The position numbers and the translations under genes were made by a program. The notes beneath the pieces are model-generated. The model searched no databases and was not told the origin of the DNA. It saw nothing but the letters and a program-made list of their open reading frames with translations. Shown here piece after piece: positions 1-54,468 of a DNA stretch of 64,000 bases (within the stretch, counting starts at the first letter, position 1; the number at the start of each line of letters is the position of its first letter). Source of the DNA: Campylobacterota bacterium. Lineage in GTDB: Bacteria > Campylobacterota > Campylobacteria > Campylobacterales > Sulfurimonadaceae. The stretch covers positions 1 to 64,000 of the forward strand of contig JBFMGG010000006.1 in the NCBI GenBank assembly GCA_040752835.1. Reading direction: 5' to 3'.

Positions 1-215
1 CTCTCTCTGAATTCAGGAAATAATGAACAAAAACCTTTTTTATGGCACCGTGGATAGTCTTGGCTTTTCATTGATAGATCGTAAAACGGCATCGGTAAAT
101 CCACTGCGCGATCTTTTAGTATCATCTGCTTGTCATCGGGGTAGATGGTTGACATATGGGGCTCTGAACATCCGCTTATCAGCAGAATCATCCCAATAAG
201 TAATAAATGCTTCAC
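1..215 (-). CDS. Partial lipoprotein overlapping the TpsA stop codon
   Basis: Reading the minus strand from a GTG at 215-213 gives an open frame that runs off the left edge (71 codons visible). It begins with a hydrophobic signal segment ending in a lipobox, LLISGC, so the mature protein should be a lipid-anchored envelope protein; the rest (SEPHMSTIYPDDKQMIL and on) has no family I recognise. An AGGAGAT ribosome site lies just upstream, inside the end of tpsA. The GTG overlaps the tpsA TGA as GTGA, which implies translational coupling. By position it is the third gene of a tpsB-tpsA-x operon, where contact-dependent inhibition loci place immunity genes. An immunity or surface-retention role is inference only. 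Confidence 0.72.
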   Translation of the reverse strand, partial: MKHLLLIGMILLISGCSEPHMSTIYPDDKQMILKDRAVDLPMPFYDLSMKSQDYPRCHKKGFCSLFPEFRE

Positions 216-3200
216 TTTTTATCTCCTGCTTGTGGAATATAGACATTTGAATAGCTCGGATCAGTATGAATTGCTCGATAAAAACTATCGAGAGTAAGTT
301 CAGAATTTGTCGCTGGATCGAAATAATATCTTTTATCACTAGGCGTTATTCCACTTTCCCCACACCCTATCACACACTTATATCCTGAATGCGAAGATGT
401 TTGATCCGGATTATCCAAATTGGCTTCCAGTCCGCCGTTAAAAAGAGTCGGTAATCCTCGGGTCAAATCGTATCCCAAATTTTTCCAAAAATCGTTGCGA
501 TTGTTTATTCCTGCGCTATTCCCCCCCAGCATTGCCACCAAATCCCCCGGATTGACGGAAGATTTGAAAATATTTTCAATATCTTTACTTCCATGCTGAT
601 CTTTTAGTCTTTGTTCTCCCCCATAAATCTCACGAAAAAACTCCCCTGCCGCATCAGAGCTTACCGGAGAACCGTCATATTGGGTCGTGAATTTCGCATT
701 TGGATTGTTTTGTACGATTGAACCGATTTCGTCCTGGTTTAGTTTCGTGCCCAGATAATCCTGCACCGTTCCTGCGGAATGCGCGGCCGAGTTGAGGTTT
801 CCGTTTGTAAGTTTAGTCAATTGTGTTTTGATCTCTCCGCTTTGTCGTGCTCCCCCCGTAGCCAGTTGAGTCATATTGGTTGTAACTGCAAGCTTATCTT
901 GTCCTACTTCGATCAAATCTCCGACAATACCATGGGTCTGGTTATAGTTTAGTAATGCTATGCTCGGATTTCCTTGTTGCTCGCGTTGATTTTGCAATGC
1001 TTCAGCCACGCTGTTCATGATACCATTTGTAAAAAGCTTATCCAGTCCAAGTGCAATTGCTTTGGTTTCATCGATATAGAGTTTCATGTCATCAAAGTTT
1101 CCATCTTTTTCAGCATTTTTCGTAAGTCGTACGGTTTTATTTGGATTTGTAACGTAGCTAATAGTTCCATCTGAATTTTTTATCTCGCTGTAATCTTTAT
1201 TTTCTTTACTAAGTCCTAAAGCTATAAATTTTGCTTCATCCTTACTTTGCAATATTGATCTATTATCTCCGAAGAGCTGTATGGCGATCTGCGTCACATA
1301 CCCTCCGCCGTTTCTTTGCGATGGGAGGATTCCTAAACCACTGATAGCATCCAGCCCTCCGCCCACTACTCCTGCTAATCCGTTATCATTCGACCCCGGC
1401 AGATTTTCCGTGATCTCTTTACGTACGCTTAGTCCGATGTCTTTTGCCGCTTGTTTCCATTTCTCGACAGTTTGGGTAGGGTTCAGCACCGAGTTGATAG
1501 AGTTTTCACTCGCATATATATCGTAGTTTTTACTCTCGTCTTCGGTGATCTCTTGGGCTTTGGCGATGTCGCGGTTGAGCGTGCCCGATACTGATTCTTG
1601 GCTAGTCAGGGCAATTGTCCCACCTCCGATCGTCGCACGGTTGATTTGCTCTTTATCGCTGTAACCGTATCCCGCTTCGAGGGTTCCTCCGGTAGTCTCT
1701 TTACTGTTCGTTTGGAATTGTGCGGCGGTAATATTTCCCAGACCGATACTCATCGAGGTTGATTTGTCGTAATCGGCGATGTCGCTTGCGCTGAGGGTTC
1801 CCGTCGTGAGATGAACGTTGTTTACGTCATTTCCGTTTCTATCGATGGTGGCGATGATCGCTCCTTTTAGATCGGTATTGCCGGCTACGGTTATATCGGC
1901 TTGTTTGGTTGCGATGATACCTGTTTGCTCTTCTACCCATGCTTTGGAACGGCTCGATTTCCCTGCACCTACATTGACACTTCCTCCGGTACTGATGGCA
2001 ATGCTATTGCTGTCGCCTTTGGAGCTTCCGGTGTCTTGGACACTAATGAGATTAAGGTTTCCGCCGACATTTGCCGTAACGGTATTACCGGATACATGAG
2101 CACCTTTAAGCGTCGTATCTCCTGAGGTGTTGATGAGGACATCGTTACCACTCACATAAGCATCTCTTTGGGTCGTATCGTTGGATTGGTTTTTAGCCTG
2201 TGCATATGATGCATCCACTTGACCTTCACGTGTTCCGAACAAGGTTACTTTGAACGATCCCGATTTATCTGATAACGAGGAAGAGGTATTTTGTGCCGAA
2301 GATTTCAGGGTAATCGATTCTGCGTTCATCGAGATTTTATTCCCCGCGATGACGTCACTACCTGCAACGGTGACCTCTTTCCCGGCATCTAACGTTACAT
2401 CATGCCCAGCAGCAATGGTAGAGCTTTGTGCGGAGGTACTTTGAATGGATGTTTCGCTTTTGGACATCTCGGCAATCGCATCAAATCCCACGCTGATGGA
2501 ATGTGACAGTGTATTACTAACCAAATCGATACTTCTCAGCACCATCGAAGCGGCATTGACCGCGTTGTCCGATTTAGACAGCGACTGCGCATTTGATGAG
2601 AGTTGTTTTGCGGCATTGGTAACATGTTGTTCTACCCCGACTTTGATCCCCGCTTTTAGTTCTTCGTGAACCTGATTTTTATAGGCGGTTGCATCCTCCG
2701 AGAGAATATTGATATTTTTATCAGCATGGATGGAGACATCATTGTTGGCAAAAACATTTGATGCAAGAACATTGGTATTATTACCTGAATGCACTATGAT
2801 ATTATCACCGAGAAGTTGTGTACTTACCTCTTGCGTTTGTCCCTCTCCCAGTTTGTCGGATTTGGTGATGACTCCGGCAAAAATAGAGGCTTCGTTCATA
2901 TTTAGCGTTACACCGATACCTGCTTTTGCTATAGATTCTTTATGCTGATGGCTGGCGGATTCTGTAGCTGAAAGGATATTTACATCTCTTTGTGCGTTCA
3001 CGTCAATGGTTGAAGCAACAATATTTGATCCGATGGATGTCACATCCTGTCCCGCTTCAACTACTACCGTATTCGCGCTCAATATTGCACTTTTTTGCGT
3101 GATATCGGCTTTGGCATCTTGTGTTTGTTTCTCTTCTGAAACCGTCAGCATGCCGTCATTCAAACCTAAACCAAGTCCTGATTTCTTACTGTAGTATTGT

Positions 3201-6200
3201 TTAGTCTTTTGCTCCTCATCGGATAATACATTGACGTTTTGAATTGCTGCCAGTCCGATTGCGTCTCCCGCACTCACATTCGATGCCACGATAGTAAGAT
3301 CTTTTCCCGAATTCATGATGATGTTTTTGGCCTCGGTTTTTAGCGTCGCTTCATGACGCTTTACTGCATCGGTGCTGTCCAGCGATACGGAACTGACCAG
3401 ACCGCCGAAGCTGCTTTTGGACTCTTGATGAAGTTCTGCTTCACGGTAAGCCTTGGCGAGGACGTTGATGTCCCCTGCCGCATCCACTTGAATATTCTGA
3501 GCTGCTTTTAGGTTTGCGGCTTGCAACGTGGTGTCTTTGCCGCTGGTAATAGCAATATTATTCCCGTTGATCGCCGAAGAGACGACCGACTCTTTGAGGG
3601 TTGTATCACGGGAAGAACCGGAAGAAAATGTCCCTTTATAGCTGGTCCGGACATCCGTAAATTCACGATCGTTCGAAGCAATGACGGCAATATTTCCTCC
3701 CGCGTTCAAAGCAAGCTCTTTACCTGCTATATTAGAAGAATTCACCGTGATATCGTTAGCTGCATCGATATTGGTGTCTCCTCCTGCACTTAGAATACTC
3801 GTATGTTGTTTGATCTTTTCTATCTCGCTGGAACCTTGTGCCCATGTTGTTTTGTAGAGGGAATTTTGTTCCAGGACGCTTAGGGTGACGTTTTCACCGC
3901 TCAGAGCGATATTCCCCCCTGCGGACGTTTCGGCTCCCGTGAGGGTGATATCTTTAGCCGCTCCGGCGATAAGGTTGCCCTTTGCCCAAATCTCTGCGCG
4001 TTCCCCTACCGCTGAAAGGTTTCCGGTTGTTCCGGCATATTCATTCAAATCGATACTCTTGGTAGCACTCTGTGAAACGATATTACCGTTGTCACTGATG
4101 AGCGCAACGTTATTGCCTCTGATCGTTCCGCTCGTGTTGGTGATATCATTAGTCGTGCGCAGGAGCATATCACTAGCGCTTTTGATCGTTCCGCCTGTGT
4201 TGGAAATACGATCGGCTTGTGCAAGGAGAACTCCACCCGCTCTGACCTCTCCGGCGTTGCTAAGTGCTCCATCAAGTGCCAATGCGACATCCCCTCCGGC
4301 AATGATCTTGCCGCCTTGTGTCAGCTCTTGGTTTTTTAGTGATACCAGATAGACCACCGGAACCAATACACGTTGACCTGAAACTTCTCGCTCCTCCATC
4401 CACACGATGTCACGGTTAAGCGCCCTCACCTGCTCACTACTGAGAGTTACCCCAAATTCCAGATTCAAGTCACCTTGTGCCAAGAGAGCATTGTCCATCA
4501 ATCCCCGGTATTGTGCTGTATCATTGCCGAATCCGGCCAGATAGCGTTCTCCACTCAGGCGAAACACCGCATCACGCACCAACTGTGTTTCATATGTTGC
4601 ATCGCCTAGGCGTTTGGTATTGGCGGCACTATCGAGATGCAACCTATCCATGATGTAATCGGAGCTGATAAACGTATTGAAATCCGTATACAGCGGATTG
4701 GATTCAATCAGATATGGAAGAGATGGATTCGATACGGCAACAAATCGCCCATAGTCTCCTTCGGGAAGGGTATAACTTCCATCAGCGATGAGATCGGTAA
4801 AATGCGATGATTCGGGAATCTCATTGGATGATATATTGATCGGCGCGATTCCTGCAACGACATCGGCATTATTAATGCCGATCAAATTACCATGAAGATT
4901 TCTGCCGGCCCATATTGTCGAATATACATGATCCAGAATCGTATCGGAGTGTTCATAATAACTGTAATTATGGTACCATGCATGTTTTCCCCATTTTCCA
5001 TGTTTTTCCCAGTGTTCGACATAATGGGAAATATCAATGATTTCATGGGCATTAACTGCCGCTTCGTTGTTCAACGAACCTGACAAGTACAAATCTCTAT
5101 TGGCCGAAATCATCGAATATCGGTTATGTATCGCCGCATCAATCATCATATCGTTGCCGCTCATGATATAAGCGGGTGAAAATCCTGTTTTGTCAATCGC
5201 TTCGATCGTAGTCGTCGTTGTACGATGGTCACGAAATTCGGGTGCAAAATAATCGGTAATACTGATCGAGGATGTAACGCTCGATTTGTCCGGAACGTTT
5301 GTCGAAAAATTTTCGAGCGATAAAGCATCTATGCTGAGATCCTGTTGCGCATCTATCGTTGCGGCTTCGTTACGCACCGTTCCCGAATCGTGGATTATAA
5401 TATCACCTCCTGAAACGATATAAGCACCTTCGGCATTCAGTAAGAGGTCAGACGCCGCAATATCGATTTTCTTTGCACTGTAAAGTACTCCATTATTGGT
5501 CATTTGCCGTGTATGCGCCAAAAACGTGTCAGTCCCTATTATTCCCCCATCATTGACTATATCTCCACCCGAAATATTTAGCGTATCCGCGATTATGGCA
5601 CCTTTATTGCGCATAGCATCCGACACTTCGACATCAATATTACCCGCATACATTTTTTTATTGACAATGAGTTCACTGGATTGGGAGCGGAGCGAATGTT
5701 CCGCGATTGCCGTAGCAATTACAATTTCTCCATCCGCAGTCAATTCCAATGAATCTCCTGCGTATGCAATCGGGGGCAGATTGATACCGACTCCTTTGTC
5801 CGTACCTACCAAACGGATCATTTCACCATAAATTCCCCCCAAAGCACCCGAATCGATTGAAAATTCGGCATTTCCTACCACCTCATCAGCTACAACGGTA
5901 CCATCAAGAGCAATACTATTTTGCCCAGTCACCACATCCAGTTTTTTCGCATGGATTTCAGCGTTAAGGCACAATGCCTTAGTATACAGATCGACGCGAT
6001 CGATATTAGATGCGTTCAGACCATCCCCTTCGATGGAAATATCTCCGTGCCGTACATAAAATCCCGACAACGTATTGCCGCTGATCTGAGGCATACCTGT
6101 CGTAAGTGTTGCACGCGCGGTATTGATAAATCCGCCTCCGTTTACCGTGATGCCGTTAGGATTGGCAATGATTAAATCGGCACGATGTCCTGCCACTTCT

Positions 6201-6571
6201 GCATAACCTTGCAATAATGAGCGATTTGTCCCGGTCACCTCATTAAGGATTACTCGTGCGGGAGTCGTTCCCAGATTGGCGTTGCCTTGAACCCATCCGC
6301 CAAGTTGTGTCTGGACGGCATTGGTTGCATTATTAAGAATGACTCCTTTTTGTTCGATACTAAACGCACTGAATTTGTTATGTGACAAACCATTTACGCC
6401 TGGTGTGACGATATTGACAAGAGGAATTCCGTTTGCGGTCACATCCATCTGCGGCTGATTGAAAAGCGGGGCCGCTTCATCCACAACAATAGCTTCAGCG
6501 AACAAGGTATTCCCCAGCAGGACCGAAGCAAGTGCGTATGAAATCGATTGGCGATAGAGGTGAGTAAACAT
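212..6571 (-). CDS. TpsA-type filamentous hemagglutinin / two-partner secretion exoprotein
   Basis: 2119 residues. Residues 1-27 look like a signal peptide ending LFAEA. A haemagglutination-activity (TPS) domain follows, with the hallmark NPNG at about residues 137-140 in the context LIIANPNGITVNGGGF, where secretion by the TpsB partner is initiated. The central region is made of repetitive beta-helix-type segments rich in G, N, S and T (for example GNNIAITSGKDTTLQAANL). The last 350 or so residues leave the repeat pattern and end in a tail with a C-x3-C pair (CVIGC). I see no VENN pretoxin motif, so a CDI toxin is not established; adhesin or exoprotein is the safer call. It starts 8 bp after tpsB, with an AGGAGA site overlapping the tpsB stop. 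Base composition is lower in GC than the housekeeping genes, suggesting an accessory locus. Confidence 0.9.
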   Translation of the reverse strand: MFTHLYRQSISYALASVLLGNTLFAEAIVVDEAAPLFNQPQMDVTANGIPLVNIVTPGVNGLSHNKFSAFSIEQKGVILNNATNAVQTQLGGWVQGNANLGTTPARVILNEVTGTNRSLLQGYAEVAGHRADLIIANPNGITVNGGGFINTARATLTTGMPQISGNTLSGFYVRHGDISIEGDGLNASNIDRVDLYTKALCLNAEIHAKKLDVVTGQNSIALDGTVVADEVVGNAEFSIDSGALGGIYGEMIRLVGTDKGVGINLPPIAYAGDSLELTADGEIVIATAIAEHSLRSQSSELIVNKKMYAGNIDVEVSDAMRNKGAIIADTLNISGGDIVNDGGIIGTDTFLAHTRQMTNNGVLYSAKKIDIAASDLLLNAEGAYIVSGGDIIIHDSGTVRNEAATIDAQQDLSIDALSLENFSTNVPDKSSVTSSISITDYFAPEFRDHRTTTTTIEAIDKTGFSPAYIMSGNDMMIDAAIHNRYSMISANRDLYLSGSLNNEAAVNAHEIIDISHYVEHWEKHGKWGKHAWYHNYSYYEHSDTILDHVYSTIWAGRNLHGNLIGINNADVVAGIAPINISSNEIPESSHFTDLIADGSYTLPEGDYGRFVAVSNPSLPYLIESNPLYTDFNTFISSDYIMDRLHLDSAANTKRLGDATYETQLVRDAVFRLSGERYLAGFGNDTAQYRGLMDNALLAQGDLNLEFGVTLSSEQVRALNRDIVWMEEREVSGQRVLVPVVYLVSLKNQELTQGGKIIAGGDVALALDGALSNAGEVRAGGVLLAQADRISNTGGTIKSASDMLLRTTNDITNTSGTIRGNNVALISDNGNIVSQSATKSIDLNEYAGTTGNLSAVGERAEIWAKGNLIAGAAKDITLTGAETSAGGNIALSGENVTLSVLEQNSLYKTTWAQGSSEIEKIKQHTSILSAGGDTNIDAANDITVNSSNIAGKELALNAGGNIAVIASNDREFTDVRTSYKGTFSSGSSRDTTLKESVVSSAINGNNIAITSGKDTTLQAANLKAAQNIQVDAAGDINVLAKAYREAELHQESKSSFGGLVSSVSLDSTDAVKRHEATLKTEAKNIIMNSGKDLTIVASNVSAGDAIGLAAIQNVNVLSDEEQKTKQYYSKKSGLGLGLNDGMLTVSEEKQTQDAKADITQKSAILSANTVVVEAGQDVTSIGSNIVASTIDVNAQRDVNILSATESASHQHKESIAKAGIGVTLNMNEASIFAGVITKSDKLGEGQTQEVSTQLLGDNIIVHSGNNTNVLASNVFANNDVSIHADKNINILSEDATAYKNQVHEELKAGIKVGVEQHVTNAAKQLSSNAQSLSKSDNAVNAASMVLRSIDLVSNTLSHSISVGFDAIAEMSKSETSIQSTSAQSSTIAAGHDVTLDAGKEVTVAGSDVIAGNKISMNAESITLKSSAQNTSSSLSDKSGSFKVTLFGTREGQVDASYAQAKNQSNDTTQRDAYVSGNDVLINTSGDTTLKGAHVSGNTVTANVGGNLNLISVQDTGSSKGDSNSIAISTGGSVNVGAGKSSRSKAWVEEQTGIIATKQADITVAGNTDLKGAIIATIDRNGNDVNNVHLTTGTLSASDIADYDKSTSMSIGLGNITAAQFQTNSKETTGGTLEAGYGYSDKEQINRATIGGGTIALTSQESVSGTLNRDIAKAQEITEDESKNYDIYASENSINSVLNPTQTVEKWKQAAKDIGLSVRKEITENLPGSNDNGLAGVVGGGLDAISGLGILPSQRNGGGYVTQIAIQLFGDNRSILQSKDEAKFIALGLSKENKDYSEIKNSDGTISYVTNPNKTVRLTKNAEKDGNFDDMKLYIDETKAIALGLDKLFTNGIMNSVAEALQNQREQQGNPSIALLNYNQTHGIVGDLIEVGQDKLAVTTNMTQLATGGARQSGEIKTQLTKLTNGNLNSAAHSAGTVQDYLGTKLNQDEIGSIVQNNPNAKFTTQYDGSPVSSDAAGEFFREIYGGEQRLKDQHGSKDIENIFKSSVNPGDLVAMLGGNSAGINNRNDFWKNLGYDLTRGLPTLFNGGLEANLDNPDQTSSHSGYKCVIGCGESGITPSDKRYYFDPATNSELTLDSFYRAIHTDPSYSNVYIPQAGDKK

Positions 6572-6579
6572 AGTGTCTC

Positions 6580-8199
6580 CTAAAAATTGACCGAAGCGCT
6601 TATCCCGATAAACGGTTCTACGTCAAATGTTGCATCCGGGGCGGTAAGAGGAATCGCATGATAAAGATCGATATTCAAAGAACGATACTGTCCACGAAGC
6701 CCCAAGGTAGCGCTTGTAAGCATCCCGCCTGAAGTATCTTCACCTGAACGTATCCGACCGAGATCGTACGCGCAATAAGGAGCGATATATTTTGAAAGTT
6801 GAAATGCAAAATCATTACGGGCATACCATCCGCTGTTACCGCTGATGTTGCGATTCTGAAATCCCCGAACGCTGTACGCTCCCCCGATACTTATCTGCTC
6901 AACGCTATAAAGCAGATCATTGCTATACTGGGCAAAGGCAGAAAATCGATATGTCACGGGAAGGGAATAAGAAAAATATTTGGTACTCCCAACAGCCAGC
7001 GTCCATTTTGAGAAATCATGTTTAAGCGCACCGTCGGTTGTCGGATGAAACGGATTCAAGCCGTGGTAATAATCCAACAGGAGATACGATTCCAAAGACG
7101 GATTGCGATAAACGAATTTTCCACCGATTTTACCGACTGTTAAATTGTAAGTTGACGAATCGATCACCGCCCCTTCGATCATACTGAGTGTCTTCTTTTG
7201 GGCCAGAGATCCGGACAGCTCAACATTCTTGGTACGGGTATGAAAAAGTTTATAAGTTGTGTCGAGAGAATAAACTTCACTTTCTCCATGAGAGATATAT
7301 GAATCATTCAAGCCCCTGATCGTCTGGGAATAGGTAAAACGGGATAATCCCGCTTCCCAAAGCCATTTTCCTAAAGGGATACCATAGGTGTATGAATTTC
7401 CAAAAGTTTTGCGTCCGGTTTGTTGTTTATCAGTCGTATTAAGCGCAATTTCAAGAATATCGCTGAAACCGAAAAAATTTTCCCATACTACCCCGCCCGA
7501 AATTTGATATTTTCCCGTTTCTTCCGAACCAAAATTATTTAGTCCCAATGAGCCGAATAAAGGAGCGGTTTCACGGGTATTCAAAACGATATCGCTGCTT
7601 CCGACTCTCTCACCAGGCACCAAGCGCATCCGTGTCTCGCCGGATCGCAACCGATTCACCTGTTCCAATGCACTTTCAAGATCTCCGAGATGCAACACTG
7701 CATCTGCCAGACCAATAAATGCTCCGCTCGTTCTTTTGCTGTCGGAAAGGATTCGGCCTACCTTCCCTTCAACCGCATTCATTTCAATCTTACCTTCTGC
7801 GATATTCTGCGTAGGAAGATAGACTCGTGAGGTGACATATCCTTTATCTATGTAAAGTTTTGTAAACGCATCGGCTAATGAATTGAGCGCACGAATACCG
7901 TTACATCGGCTGATATACTCTTTTGTGATTGCTTCAAACTCTTCTTTTCGAATCAATGTAGCATTCTTCACGTTGATGGTACGTGTTATGAAACATACCG
8001 TATCGTTTTTTTCTTCGGATACATTGACTTCGGGGACAATACCTTCTGACGAAGGTATAGCGGTATCTACATTTTCAAGCTTCTGATAGAGTTTGCGCTG
8101 TTCCTCTTTCAAAAACGGAACCATCGTATCAGTGGCTGCATGTCCGGTCAAAACGCCAAACATAAATATCAAAAAAAATGACAATATTTTATTAATCAA
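6580..8199 (-). CDS. TpsB outer-membrane transporter (ShlB/FhaC/HecB family)
   Basis: 539 residues, normal for the family. A signal peptide (about 1-21, ending TGHAA) precedes a POTRA-type periplasmic region; the C-terminal two thirds form the 16-strand barrel. The conserved barrel motif VRGF occurs in GGAYSVRGFQNRNISG, and the protein ends in an aromatic residue (SASVNF), as outer-membrane barrels do. It should recognise the TPS domain of the 2119-residue protein encoded directly downstream and export it across the outer membrane. The frame opens at a TTG (8199-8197) with only a weak purine-rich ribosome site; no better in-frame ATG precedes the signal peptide. It is the first gene of the tps operon, behind an AT-rich promoter region. 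Confidence 0.92.
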   Translation of the reverse strand: MINKILSFFLIFMFGVLTGHAATDTMVPFLKEEQRKLYQKLENVDTAIPSSEGIVPEVNVSEEKNDTVCFITRTINVKNATLIRKEEFEAITKEYISRCNGIRALNSLADAFTKLYIDKGYVTSRVYLPTQNIAEGKIEMNAVEGKVGRILSDSKRTSGAFIGLADAVLHLGDLESALEQVNRLRSGETRMRLVPGERVGSSDIVLNTRETAPLFGSLGLNNFGSEETGKYQISGGVVWENFFGFSDILEIALNTTDKQQTGRKTFGNSYTYGIPLGKWLWEAGLSRFTYSQTIRGLNDSYISHGESEVYSLDTTYKLFHTRTKNVELSGSLAQKKTLSMIEGAVIDSSTYNLTVGKIGGKFVYRNPSLESYLLLDYYHGLNPFHPTTDGALKHDFSKWTLAVGSTKYFSYSLPVTYRFSAFAQYSNDLLYSVEQISIGGAYSVRGFQNRNISGNSGWYARNDFAFQLSKYIAPYCAYDLGRIRSGEDTSGGMLTSATLGLRGQYRSLNIDLYHAIPLTAPDATFDVEPFIGISASVNF

Positions 8200-8346
8200 T
8201 GTTTTCTCATGTTTAAAATTAACAAATAGTAAACACTTTTTATTTAATTATTCATTAATTATAAATATTTTAAAACAATTAAAAATATTTGTCGAGGCTG
8301 CTATGTGAACAATTTTTAGACTTTGGAAAAATTTTAATGGAGAAAA
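8200..8346 (-). promoter_or_regulatory. AT-rich control region upstream of tpsB with a 9-bp inverted repeat
   Basis: The gap between ccsBA and tpsB is almost entirely A/T, in contrast to the GC-rich gene next door. It contains a perfect 9-bp inverted repeat, AAATATTTT at 8263-8271 and AAAATATTT at 8282-8290, separated by 10 bases. This would suit a repressor or nucleoid-protein site controlling the tps operon. The promoter itself could not be assigned uniquely because many TATAAT-like strings are present. Confidence 0.45.
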
Positions 8347-8368
8347 TCGCCGCCATACAAAGCGGCGA
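8347..8368 (-). terminator. Rho-independent terminator of ccsBA
   Basis: A perfect 7-bp GC-rich stem, TCGCCGC at 8347-8353 and GCGGCGA at 8362-8368, has an 8-base loop. On the minus strand it lies about 30 bp after the ccsBA stop and is followed by a T-rich run (ATTTTCTCC then TTAAAATTTTT). Confidence 0.7.
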
Positions 8369-8396
8369 TAAGGAAAAAAGGAAAAAAAGAAAAGAA

Positions 8397-11300
8397 TTAC
8401 GCGGTTTTGCGTTTGGGGTATGCCATTGCGATCACGATCGCGATAACGGCATAGGTGACGGGGACGAAATCGGGAACCGGTACAGGGTCGCCTTTCGCGT
8501 ACGAGTGAAGCCCTGCGAGGTAGTAGTTTACCCCAAAATAGGTCATCAGAACCGACGTAAACGCCAGCAGGGAGACAACGCTGAAGACGTAGTCGCTGTA
8601 CGCCCCTTTGATAAAGCGCAGGTGGATGACGACGGCGTAGACGAGGATCGTCACGAGCGCCCATGTCTCTTTTGGGTCCCAGCCCCAGTAGCGGCCCCAG
8701 CTCTCGTTCGCCCAGACGCCGCCGAGGAAGTTTCCGACGGTCAGGAGGACCAGACCGATGATGAGGCTCATTTCGTTGATGGCGTTAAGCTCTTTGATCG
8801 CGAGGTTGAGCCGTCCGGCGTTTTCGCCCCGTTTAAAGACGAACAGCAGCAGGGTAATCATCCCCAGCAGCGCTCCCAGACCGAGGAACCCGTAACTGGC
8901 CGTAATCATCGACACGTGGATCGAAAGCCAGTACGACTGCAATACCGGAACGAGGTTCGTAACCTGCGGATCCATCCAGTTCAGATGGGCGACGAAGAGG
9001 ATCAGGCCCGTCAGGATCGACGTCGCGGCCATCGTCATCACCGAACGGCGCGAGAAAATGAATCCCGCGAGCACCGTAGCCCATCCGATGTAGATCATCG
9101 ACTCGTACCCGTTCGACCATGGAGCGTGACCCGAAATGTACCAGCGGATCGCAAGTCCCACCGTATGCGCGGCGAAAAAGAGCACCAACAGCCCGAACGA
9201 CATCTTCGTAAACCATGCCATCGCAAACGACGGCTTGAGGATTTTGACGAACGACAGGATCAGCAAGAGGAACCCGACGACGAAATACAACGGCCAGAGC
9301 TGTTCAAAGATGTTCGCCTTGTTGTAGAAAATCTCGGCTTTGAGCTTCATGTCGGCGGGATAGACGCTCGCCCCGACGAAACGCTGGTATTTGTCGATGC
9401 GCGCGAGTGCTTCATCGGCCTGTTTCCAGTCACCGCTTTTGATCGCGGCGTCGATGGAGCTGAAATAGCCGATGGCGAGGAGGCGCACCACTTCGCCCTC
9501 TTTGGGCTGCAGGGTTTGGAGCGCTTCGATCGTTGCGTCCCATTTGTGGTTTTTATCGTTCGGACGGGGCCACATCCGCACGAGGGAGCCGGTGTAGACC
9601 ATGTAGGCGACGTTCACCCGCTCGTCGACCTGAAGCAGCGCCTTGTCGAGTTTGTCCCGTTTGCCGGGGGACTTGCGGTTGGCTTCGTCGACGAGTTTGG
9701 CCAGTTTGTAACCCGCGATTTCGTCGGGGAATTCGAAAAACTGCGAGAAAGCGGCCGTTTTCGCATTTTCGGGAAGTCCGATGAGCTTATTGATCTCCTT
9801 GTCTCCCGTACGGATCATTGCGATCTCGCGCCATGCGTCGGGACGGAGCATCATCCCCAGAACGACCTGGTTGGAGGTGAGCCCCATAAACGTGTCGCTG
9901 CGGCCCAGCTTGGCAAGGATTTCGTGGGTCAGCGTGTCCATCGGCTTCATCCGTCCGCTGGCATCCTGCACGACGAGACGGCCGAATTGGTCGGCATGGG
10001 CTTTGTCGAAAGCCTTGGCGGTCTGGATGACCGGGTTGGACTCGTCCGAAGCGACCGCATCGGTCGATCCGAATGCCATCAGGGCAATCAGGAGCGAAGC
10101 CGCCGTTTTTTGGGCGTTGATCGATTTGAGTTTTTCACCCAGGGCGTTGAAACGGCCCGTTTTGACGAACAATACGCCAAAAAGGCCGATCGCGAGCAAC
10201 AGATACCCGATGTAGGTAATAAGGGTTCCCGGATCGCGGTTGACCGAGAGGACGGTTCCCAGTTCGTCCTGATCGTACGAGGACTGGAAAAAGCGGTATC
10301 CCTGATAATCCAGGACATGGTTCATGTAAATACGGAAGTCGAACTCTTTTTGGTTTGCCTCGTCGATCACCGTCACTTCACTGGCGTACGAGGAAGGGGA
10401 CATCGATCCCGGATAACGCTCAAGCTGAAAATCGCGCAACGCTACGGCAAAGGGGAGTTTACGCTCGATCGAACCGTACGAAGCCTGAATCATCATCTCT
10501 CCGAGCTTCACCTGAACCGCTTCGCCGATCTCTCCGGGCGTTCCCATGACGAGTGCCTGGGCGCGTTCGCCTCCTTTGGTAAAACTGAGCGTAAGCGCAT
10601 CGGAGCCTTTCATCATCGGGCCTTTGGCGGGGAGCGAAACCAGTTTTTTCACCGCTTTGGGGAGGAAGCTGCGCATGACGAACCCGCTTTGAGGACTTTG
10701 GTAGAGTGTACGTCCCGCAAAAAGGTGTTTACCGCCGGCGAGAGGTGCGCTTTGCTGCGTATCCATACTCAGCGTCATCAGCGGCTGCGGCGTAGTCAAG
10801 TACGGCTGGTCGTTTTCGACGCTGAGAGCGACAACGGGCTTTTCAAACGTTTTCCCCGAACCGAAATCGATTACCACGTCGTTGGCTTCGACGAACTCTC
10901 CCTGTACGAGCTGAACCTGCTGGGCCCCCGCCGCACCCGTTACCATCAGCTCGATAACGGGCTTGCCGGCCGGATCGGCGACCATCTCGTACGACGCGTC
11001 GCCCATGTAAGCTTCGAGCTTGACGCTCACCGATTCACCGCCGACGTCAAGCGTCCGCTCGAAATCGTTGGCTGAACGCTTGGAGAGAAAAAGAGGCTCT
11101 TCGAACGTGTAGGTATTGTCGCCTTTGAGAACCGAAAACGTAATGTAGGGCTCCGCGCTGGTAATCGCGTCGTTCTTTTCCCCTTCGCGGATGTGCATCA
11201 TCCCCTCATATCCGATGTAACGGGTCACCGCCGCGCCGACAAGGATAATCAAAAAAGCGACGTGGAACAAAAGCACCAGCGCTTTTTCGCGCCGTGCCAT

Positions 11301-49686: not shown

Positions 49687-51567
49687 ATGGCAAAACATCA
49701 GTTTCAGACTGAAGTCTCACAAATCTTGCACCTCATGATCCACTCTTTGTACTCCAACAAGGAGATTTTCGTCCGCGAACTCGTCTCGAACGCCTCCGAC
49801 GCCCTCGACAAACTCAACATGCTTGTCCTCACGGACGATAAGTACAAGGGGATCGCGTTCGCACCCCGCATCGACATCTCCATCGACAAAGAGGCCAAAA
49901 CCCTCACGATCAGCGACACCGGAATCGGGATGAACGAAACCGACCTTGTCGAGAACCTCGGGACCATCGCCAAATCGGGGACCAAAGCGTTCCTCGAGCA
50001 GCTCACGGGCGATCAGAAAAAAGACTCCAAACTCATCGGTCAGTTCGGGGTCGGATTCTACGCGTCGTTCATGGTCGCCGACCGCGTCGAGGTCATCAGC
50101 CGCAAAGCGGGCGAAGAGAACGCCTACAAATGGTCGTCCATGGCGGGAAGCGAATATGAGATCGAGCCTTCTACCCGCGAGAGCCACGGTACGAGCATCA
50201 TCATGCACCTCAAAGAAGACGAGTCCGAGTTCCTCGACGCATGGCGGATCGAAAACATCATCAAAAAATACTCCAACCACATCCCCTTCCCGATCTTCAT
50301 GGACAAAGAAGAGTGGGTCGCTCCCAAAGAGGGAGAAGAGAAAGGGCACAACGAAACCGTCAACAAGCAGATCAACAAGGCCAACGCCCTCTGGACCATC
50401 AGCAAAAACGACATCACCGACGAAGAGTACAAGGATTTCTACTCCAGCATCGCCCACGACTCTTCCGAACCGCTCCTGTGGATGCACAACAAAGCCGAGG
50501 GATCGCTCGAATACACCACCCTTTTCTATGTCCCCTCCAAAGCGCCGATGGACCTCTACCGCGTCGATTACCAAAGCGGGATCAAGCTCTACATCAACCG
50601 CGTCTTCATCACCGACGATGAAAAAGAGCTCATGCCGACCTACCTGCGCTTTTTGCGCGGGGTGATCGACTCGGCCGACCTGCCGCTCAACGTCAGCCGC
50701 GAAATCCTCCAGAGCAACAAGGTGATGGCAAAGATCAAAAACGCTTCGGTCAAAAAAGTGCTCGGCGAACTGGCCAAACTGGCCGAAAACGATGCAGCCA
50801 AATACGACGCGTTCTACAAAGAGTTCGGCAACGTCCTCAAAGAGGGGCTTTACAGCGACTTCGGCAACCGCGAGAAGATCCTCGAACTCCTCAAACTCAA
50901 TACCCTGAACTCCGACACCCCCGTCATGTTCGGTGACTTTGTGAAAAATGTGGACGAAGAGAAAAAAGAGATCTATTACATCACGGCGAAAATGAGCCTC
51001 CAGATGCTCAAAAACTCTCCGGCGCTGGAGCGCTTCAAGGCCAAAGGGATCGACGTCCTCGTCCTCAACGAAGAGATCGACACGATCGTCTTCCCGATGG
51101 TAAGCGAGTACAATGAGTACAAGTTTATCAACGTCGCCGACGCGAAACTCGAAGCGAGCGAAGAGGAGAAAAAAGAGCAGGAAGAGAAAGCCAAAGGGCT
51201 CGAATCGTTCACGACGCAGCTCGAAAACGCCCTCGGCGAGAAGGTCAAAAAGGTCGAGACGACGTTTGACCTGACCGAGTCCGCCGTATGCCTCAAAATC
51301 GACAAGGAAGACCCCGGCTACATGATGGCGCAGATGATGAAGCAGTTCGGGCAGATGGGCGGCGACGTACCCCCCATCAAACCGATCCTGCAGATCAACC
51401 CGAACCACGAGCTGATCAAAAAACTCAGCGATTCAGCCGACATGAACCTCATCGAGGATGCGGCGCATGTGCTGCTCGATCAGGCGAAACTCTATGAGGG
51501 GGAAACTCTCGAAGATACCGCTGGGTTTATCGCGCGGTTGAATCGGATTATGGCTAAGGCGCTGTAA
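49687..51567 (+). CDS. htpG: Chaperone HtpG (Hsp90)
   Basis: 626 residues with the GHKL ATPase domain (NKEIFVRELVSNASDALDKL, DTGIGMNETDL, GQFGVGFYASFMVADRV), a middle domain and a C-terminal dimer domain. A 99-bp AT-rich gap upstream with a TTAAAAT stretch probably carries its promoter; no full CIRCE element is present. An AAGGAAAC site precedes the ATG. Confidence 0.97.
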   Translation: MAKHQFQTEVSQILHLMIHSLYSNKEIFVRELVSNASDALDKLNMLVLTDDKYKGIAFAPRIDISIDKEAKTLTISDTGIGMNETDLVENLGTIAKSGTKAFLEQLTGDQKKDSKLIGQFGVGFYASFMVADRVEVISRKAGEENAYKWSSMAGSEYEIEPSTRESHGTSIIMHLKEDESEFLDAWRIENIIKKYSNHIPFPIFMDKEEWVAPKEGEEKGHNETVNKQINKANALWTISKNDITDEEYKDFYSSIAHDSSEPLLWMHNKAEGSLEYTTLFYVPSKAPMDLYRVDYQSGIKLYINRVFITDDEKELMPTYLRFLRGVIDSADLPLNVSREILQSNKVMAKIKNASVKKVLGELAKLAENDAAKYDAFYKEFGNVLKEGLYSDFGNREKILELLKLNTLNSDTPVMFGDFVKNVDEEKKEIYYITAKMSLQMLKNSPALERFKAKGIDVLVLNEEIDTIVFPMVSEYNEYKFINVADAKLEASEEEKKEQEEKAKGLESFTTQLENALGEKVKKVETTFDLTESAVCLKIDKEDPGYMMAQMMKQFGQMGGDVPPIKPILQINPNHELIKKLSDSADMNLIEDAAHVLLDQAKLYEGETLEDTAGFIARLNRIMAKAL

Positions 51568-51594
51568 AAATTCTTCTTCTTTTTTACTTCAAAT

Positions 51595-51610
51595 TCCCGC
51601 AATTGCGGGA
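51595..51610. repeat. Perfect 16-bp palindrome at the edge of the AT-rich insert
   Basis: TCCCGCAATTGCGGGA lies 28 bp after the htpG stop. It is a GC-rich palindrome at the point where base composition drops sharply. No T-run follows on either strand, so it is not a standard terminator. It may mark an insertion junction or serve as a weak terminator for htpG. Confidence 0.5.
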
Positions 51611-51689
51611 TATTACTTTAACACTATTCATAATACATTCAGTTAAAGATTATTACAATCACTGGTTTATTTAATTAAGGATACAAAAT

Positions 51690-52970
51690 ATGAAAACTAC
51701 TGAAGTTTTTGGTGTATCAAATAGTAATATCAAATCTTATATTGAAAGGCCAGATGTTGATGCTAGATTTTTAGAGGGTCTCGAACGCAACAAACATATA
51801 ATTGTTTTCGGTTCTTCTAAGCAGGGTAAAACATCACTGACAAATAAGCATCTATCAGAAGAACATTTTGTAAGAATCAATTGTTCTCCTGAAACTGCAC
51901 CCATCGATATCTATAAGTCTATTCTTCGACAACTGAACTTTGAGTTTATCGAAGACAGAACAATTAAATCATCTTCTGAATCTTCAGGTCAAGCAGGAAT
52001 TAAAACAACAGTAAAAATTCCAATTGTATCAGTAGAATTAAATGGTGGTGTTGGTGGGAAAAGCTCTACAGAAGAGCATACAAAATATAAGAATGTTGAA
52101 TATAATTTAGCATTACCCCAAGATATTAGTGAAATTTTGAAAAGCATTTCTTTTTCAAAAAGAATTATTCTTGAAAACTTTCATTATCTCGAAGAATCAG
52201 CTCAACAAGAAATGGCATTTCATCTAAGAATCTTTGAAGACTATAATATCCTTTTCATTATTTTAGGAATATGGAGAGAAAAAAATCGTCTAGCTCAGTT
52301 TAATGGTGATCTACAGGATAGATTAATTGAAATTCCTGTTGAACCATGGACTAAACATCATTTTCAAATGGTAGCTGATAAAGGTGGGCAGTTATTACAT
52401 GTATCATTTGAGAATGTTTTAGAAGATATCATTGAAAATTCATATGATAGTATTGGAGTTTTTCAAGAATTATGTAAAGAATGCTGTCTATCCGCAGGAA
52501 TTGAAACAATTCAATCTAATCATAAAGTCATTACTAAAGATAACTTAGATTCAGCTATTCAAAAAAAAGTTGAAGATTATTCAGGAAGACATATAAGAAG
52601 CTTAGAAACTTTTGTTGAACAAAAAGTGAAAAAAGCAGATGAAATACCACTATATATTGCTTATTATTTCGTTAAGTATCTTTTTAATCTAGCTTCACAA
52701 ACAATTGAAGAAGGACTCAAACGTAATGATATCCAATCAGGAATACAGGCTCTTCATCACCGACCTGATGATGTAAGGCCATCCGATATGAGCTATTTTT
52801 TACATAATTTGACTACAAACCAAATTAAAAAAAATATTATTCCTCCTCTTTTTGATTATGACAGAAGTACTCGGAAACTAAAGGTAATTGATTCAACTCT
52901 TTACTTTTTCCTTAAAAATATTAATAAGCAAGAATTATTTGATGAATTTGATAAACCATCAGGAATATAA
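51690..52970 (+). CDS. AT-rich lone P-loop ATPase of unknown function
   Basis: 426 residues. Walker A is FGSSKQGKTSLTNK (residues 40-53), Walker B is RIILENFHYL (about 158-167), and a sensor-type strand LFIILGIWREKNRL follows, all as in AAA/STAND ATPases. Between them is a Ser/Gly-rich insert (about 90-130). The C-terminal 200 residues are helical and end in a wHTH-like stretch (STLYFFLKN). There is no nuclease, TIR or membrane effector domain. Codons are strongly AT-biased compared with htpG next door, pointing to recent transfer. It stands alone, followed by the hairpin element and a toxin-antitoxin pair. A defence role is a guess from context. Confidence 0.8.
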   Translation: MKTTEVFGVSNSNIKSYIERPDVDARFLEGLERNKHIIVFGSSKQGKTSLTNKHLSEEHFVRINCSPETAPIDIYKSILRQLNFEFIEDRTIKSSSESSGQAGIKTTVKIPIVSVELNGGVGGKSSTEEHTKYKNVEYNLALPQDISEILKSISFSKRIILENFHYLEESAQQEMAFHLRIFEDYNILFIILGIWREKNRLAQFNGDLQDRLIEIPVEPWTKHHFQMVADKGGQLLHVSFENVLEDIIENSYDSIGVFQELCKECCLSAGIETIQSNHKVITKDNLDSAIQKKVEDYSGRHIRSLETFVEQKVKKADEIPLYIAYYFVKYLFNLASQTIEEGLKRNDIQSGIQALHHRPDDVRPSDMSYFLHNLTTNQIKKNIIPPLFDYDRSTRKLKVIDSTLYFFLKNINKQELFDEFDKPSGI

Positions 52971-52975
52971 TTTTT

Positions 52976-53322
52976 CCCTCGTTCCCAACGTCCTCGTTGG
53001 GAATGCAGACTCTCCGACAAATTTAAAACCCTTGTCACTTTTTTTGTTCCGGCAAAAAAAGTAACCCAAAAAACCTCGTCCCCCGAGCAAATCGCTCGCA
53101 CGACTTTCGGCAGAGCCTTCGCGTGCGGCTTCCAAGGATGCACGGGGGACAAAACTGTCGATTGATTTATTTTCGCGTACCGCGAAAATCAGTCCCATCA
53201 AATACTCCCTGCCCCCGCAACACACCCAGAGCCAGGCCGCTCGCCGCAGGGTGAAGCGGCCGGTCAAGCGACCTGTTGCGGGGGCGCTTTTCTTTGGTTC
53301 CTTTCTTTTCTAAAAAGAAAGG
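52976..53322. repeat. Palindrome-rich non-coding repeat element (about 350 bp)
   Basis: Five strong inverted repeats follow one another: 52982-53003 (TTCCCAACG stem, TCCT loop); 53034-53065 (13-bp arms, one mismatch); 53169-53189 (ATTTTCGCG/CGCGAAAAT); 53211-53221 with 53275-53285 (GCCCCCGCAAC/GTTGCGGGGGC), enclosing GGCCGC/GCGGCC at 53235-53261; and 53300-53322 (CCTTTCTTTT/AAAAGAAAGG). Open frames across it are short and only reflect the repeat. Sequences of this type (translating to VTFFAGTKKVT-like strings) occur between genes in many Proteobacteria as far as I recall, and are often misread as hypothetical proteins. Together with the flanking bases this accounts for the gap 52971-53401. 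Confidence 0.72.
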
Positions 53323-53401
53323 GACATAATCTTTCATGCTGCAATATATTTTCCAAACACCCTATCAAAGTATTACACTCATCTTTAAAAAGGGAGTTTT
53401 G

Positions 53402-53473
53402 ATGCTACATACTTTTTCTCCTAAATATCTTCAACTTTTGACACATCGTACCAAAAATGGTACAATCCGATGA
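53402..53473 (+). CDS. 23-codon leader ORF overlapping the toxin start
   Basis: ATG at 53402 has an AGGGAG site 5 bases upstream and reads 23 codons to a TGA at 53471-53473. That stop overlaps the toxin ATG (53470) as ATGA. The peptide (starting MLHTFSPKYLQLL) has no known family. The toxin has no ribosome site of its own, so translation of this small frame could deliver ribosomes to it. Confidence 0.5.
   Translation: MLHTFSPKYLQLLTHRTKNGTIR
53438..53466 (+). promoter_or_regulatory. Consensus-like promoter with operator palindrome before the toxin gene
   Basis: TTGACA (53438-53443), 17-bp spacing and TACAAT (53461-53466) match a sigma-70 promoter. A perfect inverted repeat GTACCA-AAAA-TGGTAC (53448-53463) overlaps the -10 box, the usual place for antitoxin autorepression. 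The toxin ATG follows only 3 bp after the -10 box, so this promoter would start transcription at or inside the toxin codon 1-2. Confidence 0.55.
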
Positions 53474-53808
53474 GTAAAAAAATAAATGTCGTTTTTTATC
53501 AAAGCCCATCCGGTAACGAACCCGTGCGCGAATGGCTCAAATCATTAGAACCGCATGATCGTCAGATCGTCGGCTGTGATATAAAAACCGTCGAATACGG
53601 ATGGCCTATCGGGATGCCCGTATCACGTCCGCTCGGAAACAGACTCTACGAGGTGCGGAGTCATATTTCCGATAAACGGATCGCGCGGGTGATCTTTACG
53701 ATCATGGATGATTGGATGGTATTGCTCCACGGGTTTATCAAAAAGAGCCAACAAACCCCGAAAGAAGAGATAGATTTGGCGATCAAACGCCTCAAGGAGA
53801 TACGATGA
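53470..53808 (+). CDS. higB: HigB/RelE-like toxin (phage Gp49-like family)
   Basis: 112 residues. The layout VVFYQSPSGNEPVREWLKSL, then RPLGNRLYEVRSHISDKRIARVIFTI, then LLHGFIKKSQQTPKEEIDLAIKRLKEI is that of Gp49-like/HigB toxins, ribosome-associated mRNA endonucleases of the RelE fold. It is encoded before its antitoxin, the HigBA order, and overlaps it by 4 bp. It returns to the GC content of the host, unlike the ATPase upstream. Confidence 0.88.
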   Translation: MSKKINVVFYQSPSGNEPVREWLKSLEPHDRQIVGCDIKTVEYGWPIGMPVSRPLGNRLYEVRSHISDKRIARVIFTIMDDWMVLLHGFIKKSQQTPKEEIDLAIKRLKEIR

Positions 53809-54086
53809 AACCTCAAGGAATCGGCACCGGTTTCGATGATTTTTTGGAAGCAGAGGGGATGCTCGCAGAAGCCGAAGCGGTTGCGATCAAACGCGTCATC
53901 GCCTATCAGCTCGCCGAGACGATGAAAAAAGAGCATATTACCAAAACCGAAATGGCAAAACGGATGAAAACCAGCCGCAGTGCCATCGACCGTCTCCTTG
54001 ACCCACTCAATACCTCGATCACCCTCGCAACGATCGAAAGTGCGGTCAATGCAATGGGAAAACGATTACAGATTCAGATGGTTTAA
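53805..54086 (+). CDS. higA: HigA-like XRE antitoxin
   Basis: 93 residues from the ATG at 53805 (AAGGAGA upstream, ATGA overlap with the toxin). An XRE helix-turn-helix is visible in TKTEMAKRMKTSRSAIDRLLDPLNTSITLATIESAVNAMGKRL. It should bind the toxin and repress the operon, probably through the GTACCA/TGGTAC palindrome. Confidence 0.87.
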   Translation: MKPQGIGTGFDDFLEAEGMLAEAEAVAIKRVIAYQLAETMKKEHITKTEMAKRMKTSRSAIDRLLDPLNTSITLATIESAVNAMGKRLQIQMV

Positions 54087-54110
54087 TCATAAAAAAGAAC
54101 TGGCATTTTC

Positions 54111-54122
54111 CCCTCGTTCCCA
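54111..54122 (+). repeat. Second copy of the 12-bp motif that opens the hairpin element
   Basis: CCCTCGTTCCCA here is identical to 52976-52987 and is preceded by a T-rich stretch in both places. The copy lies 25 bp after the antitoxin stop, so the pair brackets the hairpin element and the toxin-antitoxin operon. The hairpin partner sequence is degraded in this copy. Confidence 0.55.
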
Positions 54123-54149
54123 CTCTGAAGCGCAGAAATGAAGCCTACT

Positions 54150-54166
54150 CCAATATTGGGTACAAT
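54150..54166 (+). promoter_or_regulatory. ppiC promoter with CCAATATTGG palindrome
   Basis: TACAAT (54161-54166) lies 23 bp before the ppiC ATG; the 10-bp palindrome CCAATATTGG (54150-54159) abuts it. AAAGGAC serves as ribosome site. Confidence 0.5.
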
Positions 54167-54189
54167 TACAAAAAACAAAAGGACATACC

Positions 54190-54468
54190 ATGGCATGGGC
54201 AACCGCACGACATATTCTCGTAGCGACGGAAGAAGAATGCAACGCACTCAAAACACAAATCGAAGAGGGTCTTGATTTCGCGGAAGCGGCGGTTCAAAAC
54301 TCCAAATGCCCATCAGGACGCAAGGGAGGCGATCTAGGCCGTTTCGGACCGGGTCAGATGGTTCCCGAGTTCGACCGGGCGGTCTTTACGGGCGACGTCG
54401 GCGTCCTCTACGGACCGATCAAAACCCAGTTCGGATACCACCTGCTCGAAGTCACGGGACGCGGTTAA
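54190..54468 (+). CDS. ppiC: Parvulin-type peptidyl-prolyl isomerase
   Basis: 92 residues, a single parvulin domain with no signal peptide: ATARHILVATEEECNALK, FAEAAVQNSKCPSGRKGGDLGRFGPGQMVPEFDRAVF, and GPIKTQFGYHLLEVTGRG. This is the size of cytosolic E. coli PpiC. It catalyses proline cis-trans isomerisation during folding. It is transcribed alone, converging on the S24 gene 37 bp away. Confidence 0.94.
   Translation: MAWATARHILVATEEECNALKTQIEEGLDFAEAAVQNSKCPSGRKGGDLGRFGPGQMVPEFDRAVFTGDVGVLYGPIKTQFGYHLLEVTGRG

Follow-up and report, generated by a model that had tools for sequence, protein, structure and literature searches.

Immediately downstream of htpG, the window (the whole 64,000-nucleotide stretch of DNA analysed here) carries a single AT-rich ATPase gene, followed by a palindrome embedded in a dispersed repeat and by a toxin-antitoxin pair. 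The features of this locus are as follows.

49687..51567, + strand: htpG, the anchor gene of a variable slot identified by congener comparison
51594..51610, no strand assigned: terminator-like hairpin of htpG, TTCCCGCAATTGCGGGA, the last sequence in common with the closest congener (G036) before the insertion (blastn)
51677..51681, + strand: AAGGA, Shine-Dalgarno-like, 8 bp before the ATG of the ATPase gene, read directly from the sequence
51690..52970, + strand: lone ATPase gene of the PADLOC PDC-S59 family, 426 aa, ATG start, GC 0.30
51810..51833, + strand: Walker A, GSSKQGKT, residues 41-48; G41, S43, K44, G46 and K47 invariant across 94 homologues
51954..52094, + strand: amphipathic beta insert rich in Ser/Gly (residues about 89-135), separating helix 2 from Walker B and missing in TIR-fused relatives
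52161..52178, + strand: Walker B strand, residues 158-163 (IILEN, 159-163), ending in E162-N163 and followed by FHYL; E162, H165 and Y166 invariant in 94 sequences
52320..52322, + strand: Arg211, a possible Arg finger or sensor residue, invariant in 94 sequences and located in the DLQDR that follows sensor 1
52719..52970, + strand: winged-helix-like C-terminal end, residues about 344-426 (AF2 model and fold comparison)
52974..53326, no strand assigned: dispersed non-coding repeat of about 350 bp, with a second copy, 87% identical, at G000:C7:169035
52980..53006, + strand: 27-bp palindrome, CGTTCCCAACGTCCTCGTTGGGAATGC, 10 bp after the ATPase stop; belongs to an oriented repeat that the genus carries 3' of genes
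53470..53808, + strand: RelE/HigB-type toxin of the Gp49 family (PF05973, E=1.7e-17)
53805..54086, + strand: HTH_37 antitoxin overlapping the toxin stop (PF13744, E=1.6e-6)

The initial annotation had singled out this ORF for its strong AT-richness, and composition bears this out: its GC content is 0.301, as compared to 0.536 for htpG and 0.533 for the whole window, and the lowest of the window's 64 one-kb bins is 52001-53000 (0.297). Positions 1-9000 of the window also deviate (GC 0.43-0.48 against about 0.55 in the remainder) and are possibly another acquired region. The ATPase is present once in the source genome (2.13 Mb, 11 contigs), and full-length homologues were found at 75-66% identity. 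Against the nearest relatives, dN/dS is 0.10 (L068) and 0.07 (L069), these being the two pairs in which it could be computed, as dS was saturated in the other two. The protein is therefore under purifying selection, and the ORF is a real gene.

Comparison with congeners reveals that the gene occupies a highly variable position. The closest congener, G036, whose HtpG is 97% identical, has neither the ATPase nor the toxin-antitoxin pair; its similarity to the window (blastn) ends at 51610, at the htpG terminator hairpin, and restarts at about 53162. No close copy of the ATPase was found in 38 congeners, where we detected only a TIR version (G020) and a weak partial match (G040). This absence from sister species rules out a core gene of the genus, the outcome, together with lack of a mobile link, that the initial annotation had named as speaking against its proposal. 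In 26 loci (the window and 25 congeners), the ORF that comes first after htpG belongs to 25 different families, with a mean GC of 0.33 as compared to 0.47 for htpG (p=6e-8); GC is about 0.42 at 3-6 kb downstream, a mean that leaves out one locus too short to measure. Upstream, the operon is fixed, by our count with uppS starting 3.2-3.6 kb before htpG in 25 of the 26 genomes that have both genes on one contig, the exception being G030 (9.7 kb). The 3' side of htpG (window 51610-54190; L042-L066) is thus a diversity hotspot. Its occupant in G020 is a 492-aa TIR-ATPase immediately behind htpG (L054, 2788-4263), 55% identical to a cyanobacterial plasmid protein; another occupant has an Mrr-type nuclease domain after membrane-like segments, others weakly match DUF4145 and DUF4760, and a PADLOC scan of ten other occupants returned no match. 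From these two or three occupants, it is a reasonable guess that the slot is a defence hotspot. At one locus (L065, G029:C2:899812-901688, from a two-contig assembly) a frameshift or stop breaks htpG itself into two ORFs.

The palindrome behind the ATPase belongs to a set of 26-27 bp oriented copies (CGTTCCCA...TGGGAATGC), 27 of 31 of which lie 3' of genes. Copies were also seen at G000:C7:169041 and at L044, L046, L050, L052, L053, L054, L057 and L065; a hand count over 41 genomes of the genus placed about 12 of roughly 105 copies no more than about 3 kb from the 3' end of htpG, a stretch that makes up a tiny part of these genomes. Because of this fixed orientation 3' of genes and the lack of any preference for AT-rich ones, which also ruled it out as a marker of AT-rich cassettes, we treat the palindrome as REP-like. 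The source genome encodes one Y1_Tnp (RAYT-like) gene, at C8:80907. The second copy of the 350-bp repeat (G000:C7:168600-169400; L250 2628-3379) follows an AT-rich orphan ORF (125 aa, GC 0.33) standing behind a gene of GC 0.61, an arrangement like that at the ATPase.

As initially annotated, the ATPase does lie next to genuine toxin-antitoxin genes, but the pair is not its partner: it occurs in G011, G021 and G029, all lacking the ATPase, with toxin copies about 95% identical in G011 and G029, and its GC content is 0.48 as compared to 0.30. The pair (53470-54086) is more than 90% identical in several congeners and is near htpG there too. The RelE/HTH pair is a module separate from the ATPase, and apparently a mobile passenger of the htpG slot.

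Searching the protein against PADLOC-DB identified a full-length match to PDC-S59 (PDLC05049; E=9.7e-68, 227 bits, residues 2-413 on profile positions 4-405 of 428), a single-gene phage-defence candidate family in PADLOC. The family is already in a list of defence candidates, and the window gene is a further member. No paper naming the family or testing defence by any member was found in a limited literature search, where it may go by another name.

Scanning one genome per species with an alignment as query recovered 207 relatives, of which 80 were kept; a scan of genome contigs with the single window protein as query had returned zero. A further 59 loci were found on viral contigs and eight in plasmid records, while isolate phages gave no match to the window protein and a weak partial match with one relative as query. 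These relatives carry 16 phylum labels. Even the well-supported six-row clade containing the window protein bears five (Campylobacterota, Nitrospirota, Planctomycetota, Myxococcota and Falkowbacteria), according to a quick tree and to submitters' labels, several of them from MAG bins. At 81 of 83 dereplicated loci, the gene has a lower GC content than its flanks (median difference -0.11, p=3e-15). This composition, the patchy spread across phyla and the relatives on plasmids and in prophages agree with the mobility originally proposed. Insertion at tRNA genes was rejected as a route, a tRNA lying within 1.5 kb at only 6 of the 83 loci.

In E. coli, a relative (WP_000402159) is present in 11 of 5426 genomes as chromosomal copies at 99-100% identity. 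At the two loci inspected, it has the replication/DinI genes of P2-like prophages on one side and their portal gene gpQ on the other, thus occupying the P2 old/tin hotspot; this gpA-gpQ interval is known to hold old, tin and diverse anti-phage systems, together with some genes that are not defence genes (Rousset et al. 2022, PMC9122126). The upstream neighbour of the E. coli gene differs between these two loci, suggesting that the ATPase works as one gene. No family recurs beside more than five of the 83 dereplicated loci. Neighbours identified by PADLOC and Pfam scans include Lamassu LmuB, AriA-like, restriction-modification and AbiE genes, and PADLOC-type matches lie both near to and far from the ATPase, but most neighbours are ordinary genes. 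Defence genes near homologues, for which the initial annotation had suggested a check, are present in part. The idea of dense defence islands as the frequent setting finds no support, most copies being solitary insertions. With ordinary genes as the closest neighbours in most genomes, guilt by association is a modest argument for defence.

We modelled the window protein with AF2 from 94 sequences (pLDDT 86, pTM 0.82), giving an AAA+ core, then a helical domain, then a winged-helix-like end. The Walker A and B motifs reported initially are both conserved, and the long helical C-terminus described there corresponds to the helical domain, but the terminus itself is winged-helix-like, with strands at 388-391 and 396-399. 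D401, invariant in the alignment, may correspond to the position of the STAND MHD motif. Foldseek alone ranked clamp loaders and Cdc6 on top with poor global superposition, and we used re-aligned scores instead. By these, 2qen and 2fna, two archaeal STAND-like ATPases, are the best solved folds (Z 18-19; for 2qen, Z 18.9 with 308 residues aligned at 4.2 A). Orc1/Cdc6 score similarly to the STAND matches (Z 15-18), followed by Dark (Z 14.8 over 282 residues), CED-4 (Z 14.4 over 298), resistosomes (about 14) and TnsC (13). A second AF2 model, of the E. coli relative (pLDDT 88), gave the same list of matches. A shared fold by itself shows no function.

These models predict a minimal STAND/Orc-type AAA+ core plus winged helix. 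In common with STAND proteins, the window protein has the AAA+ core, the modelled helical and winged-helix domains, a P-loop, an acidic Walker B and an invariant Arg; the fused effector and repeat sensor of multi-domain STAND proteins are absent, and family members are mostly 420-450 aa. Longer ORFs (L170, L155, L173, L202) were considered as hiding a fused effector, and look like upstream start-codon artefacts. A Pfam scan of the window protein found no TIR domain and, besides a weak TniB match, sub-threshold AAA_22 alone as an ATPase match; a PDB sequence search yielded no convincing relative (best E=0.11). The absence of a known effector is thus confirmed, the protein stopping after the winged helix. 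It stands alone: nothing is fused to it as an effector, sensor repeats are missing, and no partner gene is conserved beside it.

The Ser/Gly insert noted at the outset is real; 66% of its residues are G/S/A/T/K/E and 12% are Lys. Its beta-type hydrophobic moment exceeds that of same-letter shuffles (mean z 1.98; p<0.05 in 53% of 94 sequences), which is not the case for the alpha-type moment (mean z -0.36); since the 94 sequences share ancestry, they do not count as independent tests. AF2 confidence over the insert is low in the window protein (pLDDT 32-49), while in the E. coli relative strands 87-95 and 101-108 form a hairpin (block pLDDT about 70-90), followed by a very-low-confidence loop. 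This position would correspond to the one from which AAA+ proteins of the initiator and helix-2-insert types display elements towards the channel of the ring. Distant plasmid-borne relatives carry a TIR protein annotation, and the TIR-ATPases (L005, L006, L054, L239-L249) form a sister family whose homology to the lone ATPases is shown by hhalign (99.7%, E=4e-27, 335 columns). Walker A and B are 43-50 residues apart in 14 of 14 TIR versions as compared to 105-118 in the 90 lone ATPases with both motifs detected, an exchange of insert for TIR that is clean within this sample. This suggests that insert and TIR are alternative outputs of the ATPase core; the exchange could instead reflect two ancient branches, each with its feature for unrelated reasons. 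A limited literature search found no name for the TIR-ATPase family and no description of either the insert/TIR exchange or the htpG slot, which may be known under other names.

Taken together, the PDC-S59 match, the STAND/Orc fold and the relative in the P2 old/tin hotspot, which came out of the profile and structure searches proposed initially and of the survey of homologues, support the first reading of a lone AAA/STAND-like defence candidate. The best explanation, which we hold at about even confidence, is a horizontally acquired single-gene ATPase acting against phages or mobile elements through a STAND-type switch. Considered separately, a defence function is somewhat favoured and, if it is granted, an oligomerising STAND-like switch seems rather likely. 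By analogy with established STAND behaviour, the resting ATPase would be a monomer or ADP form, a phage-made cue would switch it to ATP, and the ATP-bound protein would assemble into a ring. The beta-hairpin insert, placed where AAA+ rings present loops to the channel, might then take over the output role held by TIR in the sister family, since insert and TIR exchange between the two families; engagement of a membrane or target could lead to growth arrest or death of the infected cell. Alternatively, the insert may bind the trigger, and its role as effector rather than sensor is doubtful. The full version, a one-protein STAND immune switch whose own helix-2 beta-hairpin replaces the sister's TIR as the killing or target-engaging effector, with an effector choice of insert or TIR, is decidedly unlikely as a whole.

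Defence might also proceed without cell killing, if an Orc/TnsC-like ring bound DNA and acted on an invader by blocking or remodelling either its DNA or the replication of that DNA, while the Lys-rich insert touched nucleic acid in the channel. The fold is as close to Orc1/Cdc6 and TnsC as to CED-4, and elements after helix 2 are where initiator and helix-2-insert AAA+ proteins contact DNA, which together with the 12% Lys of the insert would fit such a ring. However, the insert is also Glu-rich and amphipathic rather than simply basic, and the TIR sister retains the same core while presumably signalling through TIR and not by DNA remodelling, so that we regard this as quite unlikely. Carriage by prophages and plasmids would equally suit mobile cargo conferring another benefit (lysogeny regulation, fitness or competition between elements) with no direct anti-phage action; not every P2 hotspot gene is a defence gene (PMC9122126), and the literature searched holds no functional test. 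The full-length match to a defence-candidate model, the TIR-fused sister and the purifying selection on solitary chromosomal copies outside prophages argue against this explanation, which we judge unlikely.

A transposition helper of the TniB/IstB/TnsC type, left as a transposon remnant, would account for the TniB profile, weak in the window protein (E=0.06) and better in L002 (E=2e-5), and for the structural similarity to TnsC. Yet no recurrent transposase or integrase adjoins the gene in the 83 dereplicated loci, and solitary copies keep their full length and motifs; we consider this very improbable, and rejected the candidate on the missing partner transposase. Membership in the adjacent RelE/HTH module is scarcely credible: the genes share a strand and lie 0.5 kb apart, but the pair's occurrence without the ATPase in three congeners, its different GC content and the 350-bp repeat in between all speak for separate units.

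The preferred reading, a transferred single-gene STAND-type defence ATPase, gives an anonymous entry among defence candidates a concrete form that experiments can address: the gene has been transferred very widely, stands alone, and has a relative in E. coli located in a known phage hotspot. The difference between insert and TIR, with the sister family available for comparison, predicts the site of output activity, and the 3' side of htpG is a place in the chromosomes of this genus to look for more single-gene cargo.

Among known systems, PDC-S59 has the same length and architecture as the window ATPase, and other relatives match its profile too; the window's clade has diverged from the core of that profile, L196 scoring 656 bits as compared to 227. 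The closest solved folds, 2qen and 2fna (Z 17-19 over about 310 residues with the two models), are 15% or less identical, with no sequence-level match. STAND immune switches such as CED-4/Apaf-1 and plant NLR resistosomes have the nucleotide-binding, helical and winged-helix arrangement in common with it (Z 12-15), whereas the window ATPase has neither an N-terminal effector nor a C-terminal repeat sensor, and the second Walker B position is N or D. Relative to the systems of the P2 old/tin hotspot (PMC9122126), where its E. coli relative resides in prophages, the window copy lies in the chromosome, and no phage genes adjoin it. The TIR-ATPase sister family shares the same ATPase, helical and winged-helix core, both are mobile, and one sister sits in the same htpG slot; its members end in a C-terminal TIR and are missing the approximately 65-residue stretch holding the insert, while the window ATPase is the opposite.
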